From a virus: a stretch of 45,332 nt of DNA. The stretch spans positions 1 to 45,332 of IMG/VR virus record IMGVR_UViG_3300046642_000365, one strand, 5' to 3'. Positions 3,888 through 45,332 of this stretch are shown piece after piece. Made by a program: the position numbers and the translations under genes. The notes beneath the pieces are model-generated. The model saw only the letters and a list, made by a program, of their open reading frames with translations. It had not been told where the DNA came from and ran no database searches. The first letter of the stretch is position 1. Each line of letters starts with the position of its first letter.

Positions 3888-4504
3888 TCCCCACGATCTT
3901 CATAGTCGAGGGACTAGACTGCACGGGAAAGACCACGCTCGCCCGACACATGGCTGACAGACTCAGGGCATCATACTTCCACGCGTCTGGGTCCAAGTCA
4001 CTGCACCTAGGAATGATGGCGTATCACAAGAGCATACTCGAGCACGCCCTAGTCACCTGCAATAATGGAGTGAGCGTGGTGCTTGACAGGCACTGGCCAT
4101 CCGAATGGTGCTATGGGAGGATCCTCAGGTCGCACGTGACTGAACGACACTACAACTTCAACAGTATCGTGTCCGTGATGGAGAAGATCGACCCAGTATA
4201 CGTGCACTGTAAGTCAGAGCACTCATATCAGGCGCAGACTAAGTCCCTGGAGAATCATTGCGGTGATCGCAAATATACGGAACAGGAATTTTCCATGATT
4301 GGGGCTGAGTACCGCACGATGTTCTTAGCCATGAGGATGGCGAAGAGGGTCAAGGTCGTGGATTACGTGCTTGAGGATGACGGCAAGAACATGGATGAGT
4401 GGATAACGAATAAGCTAATTCCAGCGATATACTATGAGTGCGAACAACGAATTTCTGCACCTCCTGAGGGACGTGATGCTCAGGGGAGTCAACTCAACTC
4501 CTGA
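3884..4504 (+). CDS. deoxynucleoside monophosphate (thymidylate-type) kinase
   Basis: A 206-residue P-loop kinase starting with GTG in a GTGA overlap. The P-loop GLDCTGKTT is at residues 10-18; VVLDRHWPSEW (about 65-75) matches the DR-x-x-x-S region of thymidylate kinases. It phosphorylates a dNMP to the dNDP with ATP. In the context of a putative dCTPase upstream and a putative dCMP hydroxymethylase downstream, it may act on hydroxymethyl-dCMP as T4 gp1 does, although the fold here looks like thymidylate kinase rather than T4 gp1. Its last 71 bases overlap the next gene in another frame, a long overlap that supports tight coupling. Confidence 0.8.
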   Translation: MIPTIFIVEGLDCTGKTTLARHMADRLRASYFHASGSKSLHLGMMAYHKSILEHALVTCNNGVSVVLDRHWPSEWCYGRILRSHVTERHYNFNSIVSVMEKIDPVYVHCKSEHSYQAQTKSLENHCGDRKYTEQEFSMIGAEYRTMFLAMRMAKRVKVVDYVLEDDGKNMDEWITNKLIPAIYYECEQRISAPPEGRDAQGSQLNS

Positions 4505-40015: not shown

Positions 40016-40340
40016 GTCTCACCTTTCGTAGTATTCTCTCCAATTCATACTTCCTAAGTTTCCCGCGCCGCACGAATGTGACGTACCGCATGGGATATGG
40101 CATCACCACTAACAGGGTCTTGATCGCGTCACGTCCAATCGCCAGGAAGACGTGCCAAGCGTGCTCCTCGGGCCACACCTCAGCCATCACGATAGTCTCC
40201 GCGCTCATGAATAAGTACCCGTATTCCCCAAAATGCACCATGTCGCTTCCCAGCTCTCCGGTCTTGGACAGTCCCGGATACTCGTCATAGAGCCGCTGTG
40301 CTATCGCGAGGGCACTATTGGAATGAATTTGACAAATCAT
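39987..40340 (-). CDS. conserved phage protein, possibly GNAT-like
   Basis: A 117-residue protein encoded between large terminase and the Pro-rich protein. GYLFMSAETIVMAEVW, WHVFLAIGRDAIKTLL and RYVTFVRRGKLRKYELERIL form an alternating strand-helix pattern that resembles DUF2833-like or degenerate GNAT-like phage proteins. No active-site residues can be named. ATGA overlap with the terminase stop. Confidence 0.6.
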   Translation of the reverse strand: MICQIHSNSALAIAQRLYDEYPGLSKTGELGSDMVHFGEYGYLFMSAETIVMAEVWPEEHAWHVFLAIGRDAIKTLLVVMPYPMRYVTFVRRGKLRKYELERILRKVRHEKLVQEYC

Positions 40341-41710
40341 CGGTCCTGCCTCATGGCTATCGCCTCCTCCGGGGCGTCCCTCCCAGTGAGGTAGTCGTGC
40401 CCGTCCTCCGTCCTCTCCTGGGGAGGCTTCTTATGCTTCGGCCTCGACCGGTATCCCCACGCGAAGATCCTCATCGCATCCGCGGGATGGCTCGCCCAGT
40501 TGTGCAGCGGGGTTGCCCTGAACACCTTCCTGTCGTCGTCCCACTCCTTGCGGTACTCCCTCAGCCCATTGATCGCCCTCTCGCACTTCCCGGCATCCAT
40601 CCAGAAGCTCGGCAGCAGGTTCCTGACCGCCTCGATCCCGTCCTCGACCTCGTGGCGCTGCACGGTCGTGAACTTGATCCCCATCGATCGTCCGGCCTCT
40701 ATCCGCGATCTCCCAGACGAGAACTCCCTCACCTCGATGTCGTGCGGTGCGTGGTGCCTCCCATAAGCATAAGGCCTCTCCTTGAGCACCTTCGCGTAGT
40801 GTGCGAGTCCCTCCCCACTATTCTCATAATAGTCGATCGCCCTGAACTCCATCCCGTATCGCTGAATGAACCAGATGCTCGTCGCGTCATCCACCCCGAG
40901 GTCCCACGCGGTCTCCACCGGGAGTCGAGGCTCCCACGGGACACTGCAGATCCTGTCCTGCGCGAGCATGTCGCTCATCTGCTTCGAATAGTATGCCCCA
41001 ACCATCGGCGCCTCAAATGAGCAGAAGAACTCTTGCTGGATCATTTCCTCCGGCATGTTGCTGTCCCGCTCCGCCTGGATGATCTCGTCAGTCACGACCG
41101 GGGACCCATCTGGACGCCTCGTCGATGTCGGCCCGCTGCCCGCCACCAGCACCTCGCTGAACCATGCCCGATTCTTCCGCGCCATCTCCAGGAGGTGCCA
41201 CCCGTGGTTCTTCCCCCTGGCCGTATAGATGAACAGCGCCCATCCCCCGTTCTCCGCCAGTATCGGGCGGATGTAGTCCCACGCGCCAGGGTCATGCAGG
41301 GAGTACTCGCTGAAGACCACGCCGACCGGGTTCGTCCCGACCAGCAAATTTATGTTGTCCGTCCCCACCACCTGGTATATGCTCCCGTTCTTGAACGTGA
41401 CCCGCATCTCCGTCTGGTTCTCGCTCGCCACCAGCTCCCTCGGAAAATGGGAGAGGAACTTCCTCCCGTCCCTCGTGACGCCATTCCACACGATCGCCCG
41501 TCCCTGCTTGTACGTGGGAAGCATGTGCCAGTACAGTCCCACCCTCTCGTGCGCCTTGCACGCGCACAGATTCATCGCGGTCAGGTCCTTCCCCGCCCGT
41601 CGGTGCCACACGCAGACCGCCCGCAATCCCTCCTGGTTTCCCTGCATGTGCCTCCAGACGGACTCCTGGTACGTCCTCGGCGTCCACTTGTATGGGAGCT
41701 CGATCGTCAC
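40337..41710 (-). CDS. terL: terminase large subunit
   Basis: A 457-residue packaging motor. The ATPase has a Walker A variant WHRRAGKD (residues 35-42), Walker B VVFSEY (131-136) with the catalytic Glu135, and the coupling motif YTARGKNHG (about 162-170). The nuclease domain begins with AWDLGVDDATSIW (Asp270, Asp274/275). It cleaves concatemers and drives DNA into the prohead. The GTG start lies in a GTGA overlap with the small subunit. Length is somewhat below T7 gp19 (586). Confidence 0.95.
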   Translation of the reverse strand: MTIELPYKWTPRTYQESVWRHMQGNQEGLRAVCVWHRRAGKDLTAMNLCACKAHERVGLYWHMLPTYKQGRAIVWNGVTRDGRKFLSHFPRELVASENQTEMRVTFKNGSIYQVVGTDNINLLVGTNPVGVVFSEYSLHDPGAWDYIRPILAENGGWALFIYTARGKNHGWHLLEMARKNRAWFSEVLVAGSGPTSTRRPDGSPVVTDEIIQAERDSNMPEEMIQQEFFCSFEAPMVGAYYSKQMSDMLAQDRICSVPWEPRLPVETAWDLGVDDATSIWFIQRYGMEFRAIDYYENSGEGLAHYAKVLKERPYAYGRHHAPHDIEVREFSSGRSRIEAGRSMGIKFTTVQRHEVEDGIEAVRNLLPSFWMDAGKCERAINGLREYRKEWDDDRKVFRATPLHNWASHPADAMRIFAWGYRSRPKHKKPPQERTEDGHDYLTGRDAPEEAIAMRQDR

Positions 41711-42243
41711 TCGCCCTCCCCGATCTTCTTGATCTCAACGTCTATCGGCGCGCCCAGGGACTTGGAGGCGTCCCTCTCAATGATCACGTCCTCCCCGAAC
41801 TTCCTCACTATGACCGTGAGTGAGTGATCCACCTCGCCCCGGACCTCCATGCTGCGCAACTTCGGCATGCGGTACCCCAGCAGCTCCGACCACACCCTGA
41901 TCCTCTGCTCATCACTGAGGCGGTGCTGTCCGTCCTCCCCCCGCTCCATGGCCATCATGATCAGCTCCTCCGCGGGCTCCACGCCGTGCCTAGCGAACAA
42001 GTCGTCCAGCTTCTTGGACAGGTCCTGCCTCGGCGTCGGGGAGTGCTTGTCCTCCCGCCGGGTCGACATGACCGTGGGAGACCTACCACCAGCTGCACGC
42101 CCCACGGATCGGCCCTCCTCCAGCACCCTGTCAGTTACAGGGTCATAACGATAACCCTCGGGCAGTGGCCAGGGGTGTCCTAGCTCCTCAACCCTCCACT
42201 TCTGCTGGATCTCCTCGGCGCTCAGTGTCTTCTTTCGTGGCAC
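41707..42243 (-). CDS. terS: putative terminase small subunit
   Basis: A 178-residue charged protein located directly upstream of terL. The GTG start gives MPRKKTLSAEEIQQKW, and a helical region (DLSKKLDDLFARHGVEP) may form a DNA-binding or oligomerisation element. No classic HTH is evident, so the assignment is by position and size. It is the first gene of the minus-strand late operon and has a predicted leaderless promoter ending six bases before its start. Confidence 0.72.
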   Translation of the reverse strand: MPRKKTLSAEEIQQKWRVEELGHPWPLPEGYRYDPVTDRVLEEGRSVGRAAGGRSPTVMSTRREDKHSPTPRQDLSKKLDDLFARHGVEPAEELIMMAMERGEDGQHRLSDEQRIRVWSELLGYRMPKLRSMEVRGEVDHSLTVIVRKFGEDVIIERDASKSLGAPIDVEIKKIGEGE

Positions 42244-42287: not shown

Positions 42288-42563
42288 TTAATCACCTGTC
42301 ACTTTGCTGAATCTTGGCACTCTCCTCAATCGCAACTTGCCTGGGTGGGAGGCCAGGGATTGGAGGATGGTGTCAATCCGTGCGCTCACAGAAAAGGCCC
42401 CCATGGCCATGTCCAATACTATATAGCCATTTCTCTCGATACAGAAATGTCTGAACACGGGGAAATTAACAAAGGTTATAGTGGCAATAATGAAGAGTAA
42501 TAGATACTGTAAAACTATTTTACACTTGTGACCTAAGTCCTTACCACTCAACACTTTAGGCAT
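42288..42563 (-). CDS. possible small membrane protein (doubtful)
   Basis: A 91-residue frame with one hydrophobic segment (YLLLFIIATITFVNFPVF) upstream of the late promoter. It has no good ribosome site, overlaps a degenerate copy of the repeat core (about 42533-42560) and has a composition unlike its neighbours. It may be a chance frame in AT-rich control DNA. Confidence 0.25.
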   Translation of the reverse strand: MPKVLSGKDLGHKCKIVLQYLLLFIIATITFVNFPVFRHFCIERNGYIVLDMAMGAFSVSARIDTILQSLASHPGKLRLRRVPRFSKVTGD

Positions 42564-42631
42564 CCCAATGTGAATGTTTGGTATTAAGAAAGAATACCCT
42601 AAAAGCTCAAGCTTTTGTTACATTTAATTGT

Positions 42632-42700
42632 CCCGTAATACACCTTAAGTCATTCTCTATCAATAGTTTATGAATGAGATGTGGTCATGTTATTATCAAA
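42632..42700 (+). repeat. 65-bp repeat R1
   Basis: First forward copy. Conserved flanks are CCGTAATACACCTTAA at the left and GAGATGTGGTCATGTTATTA at the right; the centre (TCTCTATCAATAG) is the most diverged of the four copies. R1 and R2 are about 87 bp apart in the same orientation. Confidence 0.9.
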
Positions 42701-42719
42701 TTTTTTTCGGTTCTTCCCA

Positions 42720-42787
42720 CCGTAATACACCTTAAATACTTGACTATCAATGGTTTAGGAGTGAGATGTGGTCATGTTATTATCAAA
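42720..42787 (+). repeat. 65-bp repeat R2
   Basis: Second forward copy, sharing with R1 both flanks and the ending GTTATTATCAAA. The centre can fold weakly: CAC/GTG, TAAA/TTTA and TTG/CAA around ACTAT (42728-42763). Bases differ from R3 and R4 but pairing is partly kept, which suggests that the dyad shape is selected. Confidence 0.9.
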
Positions 42788-42880
42788 AGTGAGTTTTACA
42801 AGTTTTGATAACTTAGTCTTACTAATACTCATTATTAGATAAGTTAATGGATAACAATTGAATTTTTCAATTCTGATAAT

Positions 42881-42941
42881 ACATAGACCACATCTCACCT
42901 CTAAGTCCTTGAATACCAAGGGTTTAAGGTGTATTACGAGG
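42881..42941 (-). repeat. 65-bp repeat R3 (inverted)
   Basis: Inverted copy relative to R1 and R2. Its central dyad is clear: CACCT-c-TAA-gt-CCTTG-aatac-CAAGG-gt-TTA-AGGTG (42896-42931), a 13-pair symmetrical hairpin or protein-binding palindrome. Confidence 0.9.
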
Positions 42942-42957
42942 AAAATTCATTATTTTG

Positions 42958-43018
42958 ATACATGACCACATCTCACCTCTAAGTCCTTGAATACCAAGGG
43001 CTTAAGGTGTATTACGGG
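42958..43018 (-). repeat. 65-bp repeat R4 (inverted)
   Basis: Second inverted copy, nearly identical to R3 (one change, GGGT to GGGC, in the dyad at 42974-43009) and spaced 78 bp from it. It ends in GGTGTATTACGGG, the complement of the start of R1. Confidence 0.9.
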
Positions 43019-43308
43019 AAATATCAATCAAAAACCCCTGTTTGTATAAAATTATACAGCATGATCATGAAGATACAGCACTCTCTAAGAACAACTTAAG
43101 TGTGTGATCTGCTCATAAGCCCTTGATACTTAACAGTTTAACTGCTGTATCTTTTCATACACGTGAGTAAAGTTAAGTAGTTGATAGAGAACAACTTAGA
43201 CTTGGCACAGTTTCTTCTTACCATAATTCAGTTCTTTGAGATTATTATGGAATCTGTTCTGTGTGTGGAATGATCTTCCCAGTAAGAAGATTGTTCCAAC
43301 CACAGAAT

Positions 43309-43608
43309 ATGAAACTAAATCGAGAAATCACAATCAGTGGAACTGAACCATTGAGCAAAACTCCACAAGTGAATCAGCTCATAGTTGCCATCAAGGCAAT
43401 TAAGAAGCACAAGTTCACTGAGGAAGAATTGCGGAAACACTTGGAAGCAGGTAAGTTCCTCACAACCAAGCAAGACAAGTTCCTGATCTTCCAATACTAC
43501 AGGAAGGAACTGCAGCCATGGTTGAGTATTGCGGGTGCCAAGTCCAGCAGGGTAGTGAAATCCGCAGAACAGATCCAGGCAGAATATAACCAGCTCATGG
43601 GAAAGTAA
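43309..43608 (+). CDS. small regulator-like protein with IFQYYR motif
   Basis: A 99-residue protein from ATG 43309; in-frame ATG at 43270 and GTG at 43261 are alternatives, and none has a clear ribosome site. Helices QLIVAIKAIKKHKFTEEEL and LTTKQDKFLIFQYYRKEL form a winged-helix-like unit; the second motif recurs in the proteins at 44271 and, more loosely, 45051. It is the first plus-strand gene beside the repeat region, where a repeat-binding replication or transcription factor could be expected. Function inferred only. Confidence 0.65.
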   Translation: MKLNREITISGTEPLSKTPQVNQLIVAIKAIKKHKFTEEELRKHLEAGKFLTTKQDKFLIFQYYRKELQPWLSIAGAKSSRVVKSAEQIQAEYNQLMGK

Positions 43609-44270: not shown

Positions 44271-44942
44271 ATGAAGAAACGAGCGCAGAAAGTCCCGGCA
44301 CACTATGCGGGACTCGATGCGAGCAAGGAGGGAACCACCCTCTGCCTCGTGATCGACGAGCACGGTGACGTGTTCAAGTTCGATGATGGTTCGTCAGTGA
44401 CCATCATAACGGAAGCCATCGCCCATAAGTTCGTGGGCTTTGACATGTTCGACACTTACATGGAGCGGCACCACGATGAGTTCGCGAGGCTGCACGAGCG
44501 AGTGTTCCACCGGCCTTGCACCCGCGATGATGACCTGATCATGGGCAGACTGTTCCTGTGGAAGAAGCTTGTCCAGATCGCCAAGGATCGCACGGCCAAG
44601 AAGGAGCTGAAGAATGAGCAGGGGCGCAAGTATACGATCGGAACTCGGTGCTACTTCGCGGGACCGCGGAGCAACGACAAGGAGCAGGTCTCCCTCATAA
44701 AGACTCCTCAGGCGAAGGCATGCTTCAGGATCCTCATGGAGACCCTGGCATCGCGTAAGGAGCAATACGAGAAATTCCGCGTTGATCCAACCGAGGTCAT
44801 TGTCCCATCAGTGACAGAACTAGAGCTCCGCAAGATCATCGAGTCACGCGCGGCGGAACTCAACACGAAGCAGGACCCGTGGCGCATCTTCCAGTACTAC
44901 CGACCCACGCTCCTGCAGGACCACCTCATAACCCATGATTGA
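44271..44942 (+). CDS. early protein with IFQYYR winged-helix-like C-terminus
   Basis: A 223-residue protein starting at ATG 44271 with a weak AAAAGATAA upstream. The N-terminal segment YAGLDASKEGTTLCLVIDE looks like a beta-hairpin domain, the middle is charged and helical, and the C-terminal LNTKQDPWRIFQYYRPTL motif is the phage wHTH-type motif shared with the protein at 43309. A DNA-binding regulator or replication protein is possible. No catalytic motif is seen. Confidence 0.65.
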   Translation: MKKRAQKVPAHYAGLDASKEGTTLCLVIDEHGDVFKFDDGSSVTIITEAIAHKFVGFDMFDTYMERHHDEFARLHERVFHRPCTRDDDLIMGRLFLWKKLVQIAKDRTAKKELKNEQGRKYTIGTRCYFAGPRSNDKEQVSLIKTPQAKACFRILMETLASRKEQYEKFRVDPTEVIVPSVTELELRKIIESRAAELNTKQDPWRIFQYYRPTLLQDHLITHD

Positions 44943-45050: not shown

Positions 45051-45332
45051 ATGGCGAAACAAACTAAGACAGAAACCACCCAGGGCGTACCAACGACCAC
45101 TGGAAAGACACTCGCAGAAACAGCAGCTGAACGGGCCAAGGTGTCCGCCAAGGACAGGTTCACCTTCAAGAAAGACCTGGAGAAGGGCGCACCGCAGGCG
45201 AAGAACATCGTGAACATCCTGAAGGCGGCGGGCGCCAAGGGACTCACGCGAGCGGAGCTCGTCCAGAAGATGGATGGGGTGGTTGTCACGCGACAGCCGC
45301 TCGGGCGCATCCTGTCCTATTACCAGAAGGAG
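45051..45332 (+). CDS. 5' part of small winged-helix-like protein (continues at position 1)
   Basis: Starts at ATG 45051 with a GAGGAAAAC ribosome site identical in core to that of the gene at 8392. The N-terminal 40 residues are Thr/Lys-rich and probably disordered (MAKQTKTETTQGVPTTTG); a helical domain then begins (KNIVNILKAAGAKGLTRAEL). Joined with 1-170 the protein has 108 residues. The good ribosome site and own promoter suggest abundant expression, fitting a nucleoid- or DNA-binding protein; this is inferred. Confidence 0.8.
   Translation, partial: MAKQTKTETTQGVPTTTGKTLAETAAERAKVSAKDRFTFKKDLEKGAPQAKNIVNILKAAGAKGLTRAELVQKMDGVVVTRQPLGRILSYYQKE
45208..45331. repeat. 124-bp direct repeat of the two contig ends (right copy)
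   Basis: Right-hand copy of the sequence at 1-124. Joining position 45207 to position 1 restores a complete 108-residue reading frame, which supports a circular map with a unit length of about 45,207 bp. The single mismatch at the final base is probably an edge error. Confidence 0.9.

Follow-up and report, generated by a model that had tools for sequence, protein, structure and literature searches.

Genome organization around the divergence point

The window, by which we mean the whole 45,332-bp stretch of DNA analyzed here, is a single IMG/VR virus record. A 125-bp repeat occurs at both of its ends (positions 1–125 and 45207–45331, identical except for the last base), and an independent, 100% identical contig (L003) spans the end junction; the genome is therefore complete, and either circular or terminally redundant. 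The contig ends split one early gene. Head, portal, tail, and terminase genes occupy the minus strand between ∼13.7 kb and 42243, and the plus strand from 43309 through the junction encodes ligase, methyltransferase, thymidylate synthase, pol A, primase, and helicase genes. The first late gene (41707–42243, minus strand) encodes a putative small terminase (TerS), whose homologs adjoin the terminase large subunit (TerL) in relatives; TerL itself (40337–41710, minus strand) was assigned from homologs so named and from phrog_2472. The first early gene (43309–43608, plus strand) encodes a 99-amino acid protein of what is here termed the IFQYYR family. A 223-amino acid paralog is encoded at 44271–44942 (plus strand), and a third member, of RILSYYQ type, lies at 45051–45332 (plus strand) in a gene that crosses the contig junction within the 125-bp terminal repeat.

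TerL, portal, and MCP are homologous to those of HTVC010P-related podophages and syntenic in order; the window phage is an uncultivated, tailed podophage of this group with a complete genome. The nearest named phage is the Manatee Spring podovirus (MW202510.1), which shares gene order, MCP (73%), TerL (64%), and IFQYYR-family genes with the window, followed by HTVC010P-type pelagiphages (NC_020481; TerL, MCP, and portal homologs, with an MCP identity of 43.8%). Phages of the HTVC010P type encode no RNA polymerase and depend on the host enzyme together with phage transcriptional regulators (PMC10504331). Likewise, no phage RNA polymerase was recognized among the window proteins scanned, and regulators acting on host RNA polymerase are what we propose for the window. 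Set against the HTVC010P type, the window phage has a 45-kb genome whose early strand encodes pol A, primase, and helicases. Among the gene models put through Pfam, no integrase or known repressor was recognized; no MCP relative that could name the host was confirmed in bacterial genome contigs, and a nucleotide search of the repeat region against known phages returned no match.

Four repeat units and a shared 25-bp palindrome

Between the late (minus strand) and early (plus strand) operons lie four units of ∼65 bp. A repeat search recovered 42633–42700 and 42720–42787 as one direct pair (68 nt, 88% identity) and 42886–42946 and 42964–43024 as a second (61 nt, 93%), the two pairs being mutually inverted (58–72 nt, 72–79%). 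The 15-base flank CGTAATACACCTTAA occurs exactly four times, at the four units, with no other occurrence in the window at three mismatches (shuffle mean of 0.37 at three or fewer). Both results bear out the two direct and two inverted 65-bp repeats described in an earlier, sequence-only reading of this DNA. Elsewhere in IMG/VR, this flank was found in the near-identical contig L003/L026 and otherwise as single matches only. Read outwards, a unit comprises GACCACATCTCA, approximately four variable bases, the palindrome described below, and then AGGTGTATTACG. The flanking boxes GACCACATC and GGTGTATTA are specific to the window phage, since they are absent from the 15 relatives examined. Units R1 and R2 (minus strand) read leftwards toward the late genes and R3 and R4 (plus strand) rightwards toward the early genes, on either side of an AT-rich center (42778–42885, 79% AT).

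A 25-bp palindrome with the pattern TAAN4TTN7AAN4TTA (extended consensus TAAryNNTTgaNNNtcAANNryTTA) is common to all four units and recurs at three other places. Exact matches number seven in 45,332 bp, starting at 42534, 42646, 42733, 42902, 42980, 43116, and 43174, and all fall within 665 bp (42534–43198). With two mismatches allowed, the extended consensus gave 15 strand-matches in the window, 14 of them at these seven sites, as compared to 0.25 expected. Four sites (O2–O5) belong to units R1–R4. The other three are solitary and without a promoter: the operator-like O1 on the late side (TAAGTCCTTACCACTCAACACTTTA, 42534–42558, 21.6 bits) and, in the early leader, O6 (TAAGCCCTTGATACTTAACAGTTTA, 43116–43140, 26.2 bits) and O7 (TAAGTAGTTGATAGAGAACAACTTA, 43174–43198, 22.8 bits). 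The sequence-only reading had placed a central dyad in each repeat and "degenerate cores" near 42533, 43110, and 43167. A shared palindrome is indeed present in every copy, but the CACCT...CCTTG/CAAGG...AGGTG dyad is strong in R3 and R4 only; the three additional sites exist as described, but they are exact matches to the palindrome (42534, 43116, and 43174) rather than degenerate ones.

Promoter-like elements within the units

Read outwards, each of R1–R4 contains TTGATA or TTGAAT at palindrome positions 8 to 13, followed 17 bp on by TATTAC, such that a −35-like hexamer lies within the palindrome. In R1, which begins with the box GACCACATCTCA, O2 (42646–42670) carries TTGATA at 42658–42663 with the −10-like TATTAC at 42635–42640; R2 has the same layout (O3, 42733–42757; TTGATA, 42745–42750; TATTAC, 42722–42727). 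On the opposite strand, R3 combines O4 (42902–42926), TTGAAT (42909–42914), and TATTAC (42932–42937), and R4 combines O5 (42980–43004), TTGAAT (42987–42992), and TATTAC (43010–43015). The outward −35/17/−10 arrangement is invariant across R1–R4, although these are duplicates whose agreement does not amount to four independent observations. By these motifs, each unit constitutes a plausible sigma70 promoter, with the −35 element in the operator and the operator center near −31. A generic promoter scan called none of the four, because TATTAC ends in C where the −10 hexamer has its final T.

Among relatives, a −10-like hexamer on the early-facing strand was observed at a spacing of 17 in L040, L006, L047, L005, and L043, at 16 in L068, and at 18 at both L117 sites. 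The peak at a spacing of 17 is modest over all sites (11 of 23), with a spacing of 39 likewise reaching 11, and no clear −10 element at 17 bp was found in L172, L174, L240, or L387. L117 and L006 each have one early-facing and one late-facing unit, and this arrangement is a simpler form of the 2 + 2 layout in the window.

The palindrome as DNA site or RNA hairpin

One reading of the dyads is that each of them folds in RNA transcribed from one strand or from both, as a regulatory RNA, an antisense RNA, or a terminator. R3 and R4 do fold well (z = −2.5 and −4.5 for R4), but R1 and R2 (z of about 0) and the site at 42534 fold no better than shuffled sequence, and no Rfam match was found. In a set of 20 sites drawn from the window and its relatives, only the TAA/TTA and TT/AA pairs are invariant, and the variable ones show no covariation beyond that of column shuffles, which equaled or exceeded the observed value in 387 of 500 cases for pairs changed on both sides, 386 of 500 for the covariation score, and 459 of 500 for the fraction paired. 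The compensatory base changes in the dyad that a comparison with relatives might have revealed were thus not found, and the earlier suggestion of an RNA made from both strands fails on the same test. The lack of covariation at variable positions argues that the palindromic element is a DNA–protein site and not an RNA hairpin. Given this result and the folding of individual copies, the hairpin reading was rejected as very improbable.

Structured leader RNAs were observed separately from the palindrome. The early leader of the window (43020–43330, plus strand) is more stably folded than its shuffles (z = −3.7) and is unrelated to an RNA found in relatives, which is absent from the window. That RNA is a conserved, structured element of ∼185 to 220 nt that separates the operator from the first early gene, with a closing stem that pairs across that gene's start codon (ATG); its loci, all on the minus strand, are L043:3643–3830, L004:4454–4637, L005:668–861, L040:396–611, L047:3640–3859, L057:4–195, L068:613–797, and L053:330–511. 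The L043 copy folds with z = −7.9, compensatory changes occur in 21 of 32 consensus pairs over seven sequences, and the L053 copy was picked up by the model (E = 1.5e-6). The loci tested matched no Rfam family, and the element is possibly a new phage RNA class.

Conservation of the palindrome in relatives

A weight matrix (PWM) was built from the seven window sites alone and applied at a threshold of 13 bits. In 53 kb of divergence regions from relatives it gave 14 matches, as compared to 0.35 expected from shuffles, and outside these regions a single match in 328 kb; the palindrome is thus kept at the same divergence point. Two position-blind scans were also made. A motif-only scan of IMG/VR recovered, among others, four independent phages belonging to the TerL family of the window (L143/L190/L195, L172, L174, and L240), each with the palindrome near TerS. 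A scan for IFQYYR proteins alone yielded 54 loci carrying 32 sites (1.8 expected), several of these relatives having no strong site. Copy number in relatives ranges from 1 to 7, with arrays of four to seven sites in L387, L240, L400/L410, L172, L174/L429, and L067. The closest parallel in layout is L387 (IMGVR_UViG_3300037408_001157), in which seven 25-bp palindromes fill the interval from TerS to the first early gene, a small one of IFQYYR type (92 amino acids), as in the window; unlike the window, L387 has neither the 65-bp duplicated promoter units nor a −10-like box at 17 bp. Also unlike the window, MW202510.1 contains no operator match that reaches 13 bits (the highest-scoring one, in coding DNA, has 11.6 bits), nor do HTVC010P, HTVC203P, and ZP6.

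The palindrome consensus was found in at least 120 viral stretches, as compared to 16 and 2 for scrambled control palindromes of like composition. Many of these stretches belong to large, unrelated PhoH/clamp-loader phages, where the sites occur as doublets 41 to 58 bp apart and no IFQYYR protein was recovered. The binder could therefore come from the host, for example a regulator or nucleoid protein that phages exploit. The distribution in other genomes fits this poorly: at least 119 matches were obtained in 257 Gb of bacterial genomes and, among the matches listed, these fall mostly one to a contig over many phyla, one Microscillaceae MAG being the exception. Moreover, in the clade of the window the palindrome tracks one locus, with multi-site arrays adjoining an IFQYYR first early gene. 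We regard a host binder as unlikely, and the likeness of the palindromes in the window clade and the large phages may be convergent.

The doublets of the large phages (L123–L202; e.g., L161:3313–3378, L134:3492–3566, and L175:970–2649) are interspersed and intergenic. Their center spacing is typical of each phage (41, 42, 48, 50, 53, or 58 bp), and their linkers are GC-rich and often self-complementary.

A possible replication origin at the AT-rich center

The palindromes might instead bind a replication initiator and surround an AT-rich stretch where the DNA unwinds, with bidirectional replication starting from ∼42.83 kb. The 79% AT content of the center, the inverted repeat arrays flanking it, and the AT-rich inverted repeats at this place in relatives are all consistent with such an origin, as is a cumulative GC-skew minimum at 43162; the skew switch, however, coincides with the switch of coding strand and thus carries no independent weight. 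In relatives, moreover, the sites vary from 1 to 7 copies, and several relatives have no strong site; an iteron cluster also fits poorly with sites that in some (L172, L174, L240, and L067) lie at a promoter −35 element or downstream in the early operon. With no initiator gene recognized, an origin built on these palindromes seems improbable.

Other elements were observed at the same center in relatives. Inward-facing inverted repeats of different sequence occupy it in L079:3526–3757 (TATTGACGGTATTA, as 2 + 2) and, as pairs of TTATTAAGGTTATTAG, in L040:772–887, L068:926–1005, L043:∼3985–4044, and L047:4023–4093; they may represent a second conserved element, or an origin. The 9- to 16-bp TTAAGG-TATTA element of L040, L043, L047, and L068 resembles AAGGTGTATTAC of the window, but homology is not claimed because the element points inwards in relatives and outwards in the window. 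Separately, a late-leader stretch lying about 150 to 200 bp upstream of TerS (CCAGGGGGCCC ... GACACCAACCCACG ... TCTGG) is conserved in L005, L004, L040, L043, L047, L057, and L068, and is a possible pac/cos site or late leader.

A candidate regulator encoded by the first early gene

A short IFQYYR-family member is the first early gene adjoining the array in the window, L067, L172, L174, L240, and L387, and in L067, L172, L174, and L240 sites flank this gene on both sides. AlphaFold (AF2) models (pLDDT of 84.6, for the 99-amino acid product, and 87.6) predict an H-S-H-H-S order of elements, as in a winged helix. Structural matches to winged-helix domains (MetAP2 insert, Pol III WH, Fur, BlaI, and Lrp) are weak (VIA Z of 4–7, up to 7.1); Foldseek searches of the models against the PDB gave no E below 0.5, and sequence profiles run against the PDB matched nothing of significance. 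From its position beside the sites, the small early IFQYYR protein probably binds the palindromes. In several phages the gene that opens the early operon next to the array encodes a family member, which makes these proteins well-aimed candidates for the gel shift suggested in the sequence-only reading.

Discussion

The repeated palindromic sites of the window are confined to the point at which the late and early operons diverge (seven of seven exact sites, 42534–43198), as in a multi-operator region. We consider it likely that this is an early/late control region, in which divergent promoters and palindromic operators under an early phage regulator act on host RNA polymerase. A multi-site operator was one of three options raised in the sequence-only reading, and it is the best supported of them, both by the seven palindromes, four of which contain a −35 hexamer with a −10-like hexamer 17 bp on, and by their retention at the same divergence point in relatives.

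In the model that we propose, two tandem promoter–operator units would direct transcription leftwards into the late operon and two rightwards into the early operon, each with its −35 hexamer inside a 25-bp operator centered near −31, and three promoterless operators would flank them. The phage would be of lytic type, with host sigma70 polymerase firing these promoters upon entry. An early phage protein acting as a dimer, for which the winged-helix-like IFQYYR product of the first early gene is the likeliest candidate, would then bind the palindromes and block the −35 elements, thereby shutting down or re-tuning its own operon and the late-facing promoters. The sites, their restriction to this region, their retention here in relatives, the lack of RNA-type covariation, and their proximity to the IFQYYR gene are established by the analysis; promoter activity, protein binding, the choice of repression over activation, and the identity of the binder are inferred.

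The predicted arrangement recalls lambda OL/OR and similar multi-operator regions, in which several palindromic operators overlap divergent promoters beside a gene for a small DNA-binding protein, the counterpart here being the candidate IFQYYR regulator. In contrast to lambda, the window has seven sites, of 25 rather than 17 bp, which part early (replication) from late (structural) genes and not lytic from lysogenic ones; it also has no integrase or repressor recognized in its Pfam-scanned gene models, and the candidate regulator belongs to a family without a name. What is new is thus an operator without a prior name and a candidate regulator family, within the known phage control type of divergent multi-operator regions. 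A broader proposal, which we put forward tentatively and think possible but doubtful, is that small winged-helix regulators of a new family, together with their 25-bp operator, could form a transcription switch across many uncultivated HTVC010P-like phages, and that large phages unrelated to them could read the same code, there present as interspersed doublets.

The HTVC010P-like group ranks among the most abundant marine phages known, and to our knowledge it is not known how its members time early versus late transcription without an RNA polymerase of their own. The conserved operator and its candidate regulator provide a concrete, testable switch for these phages, and the operator code finds new members of the group from raw sequence, as it did here.
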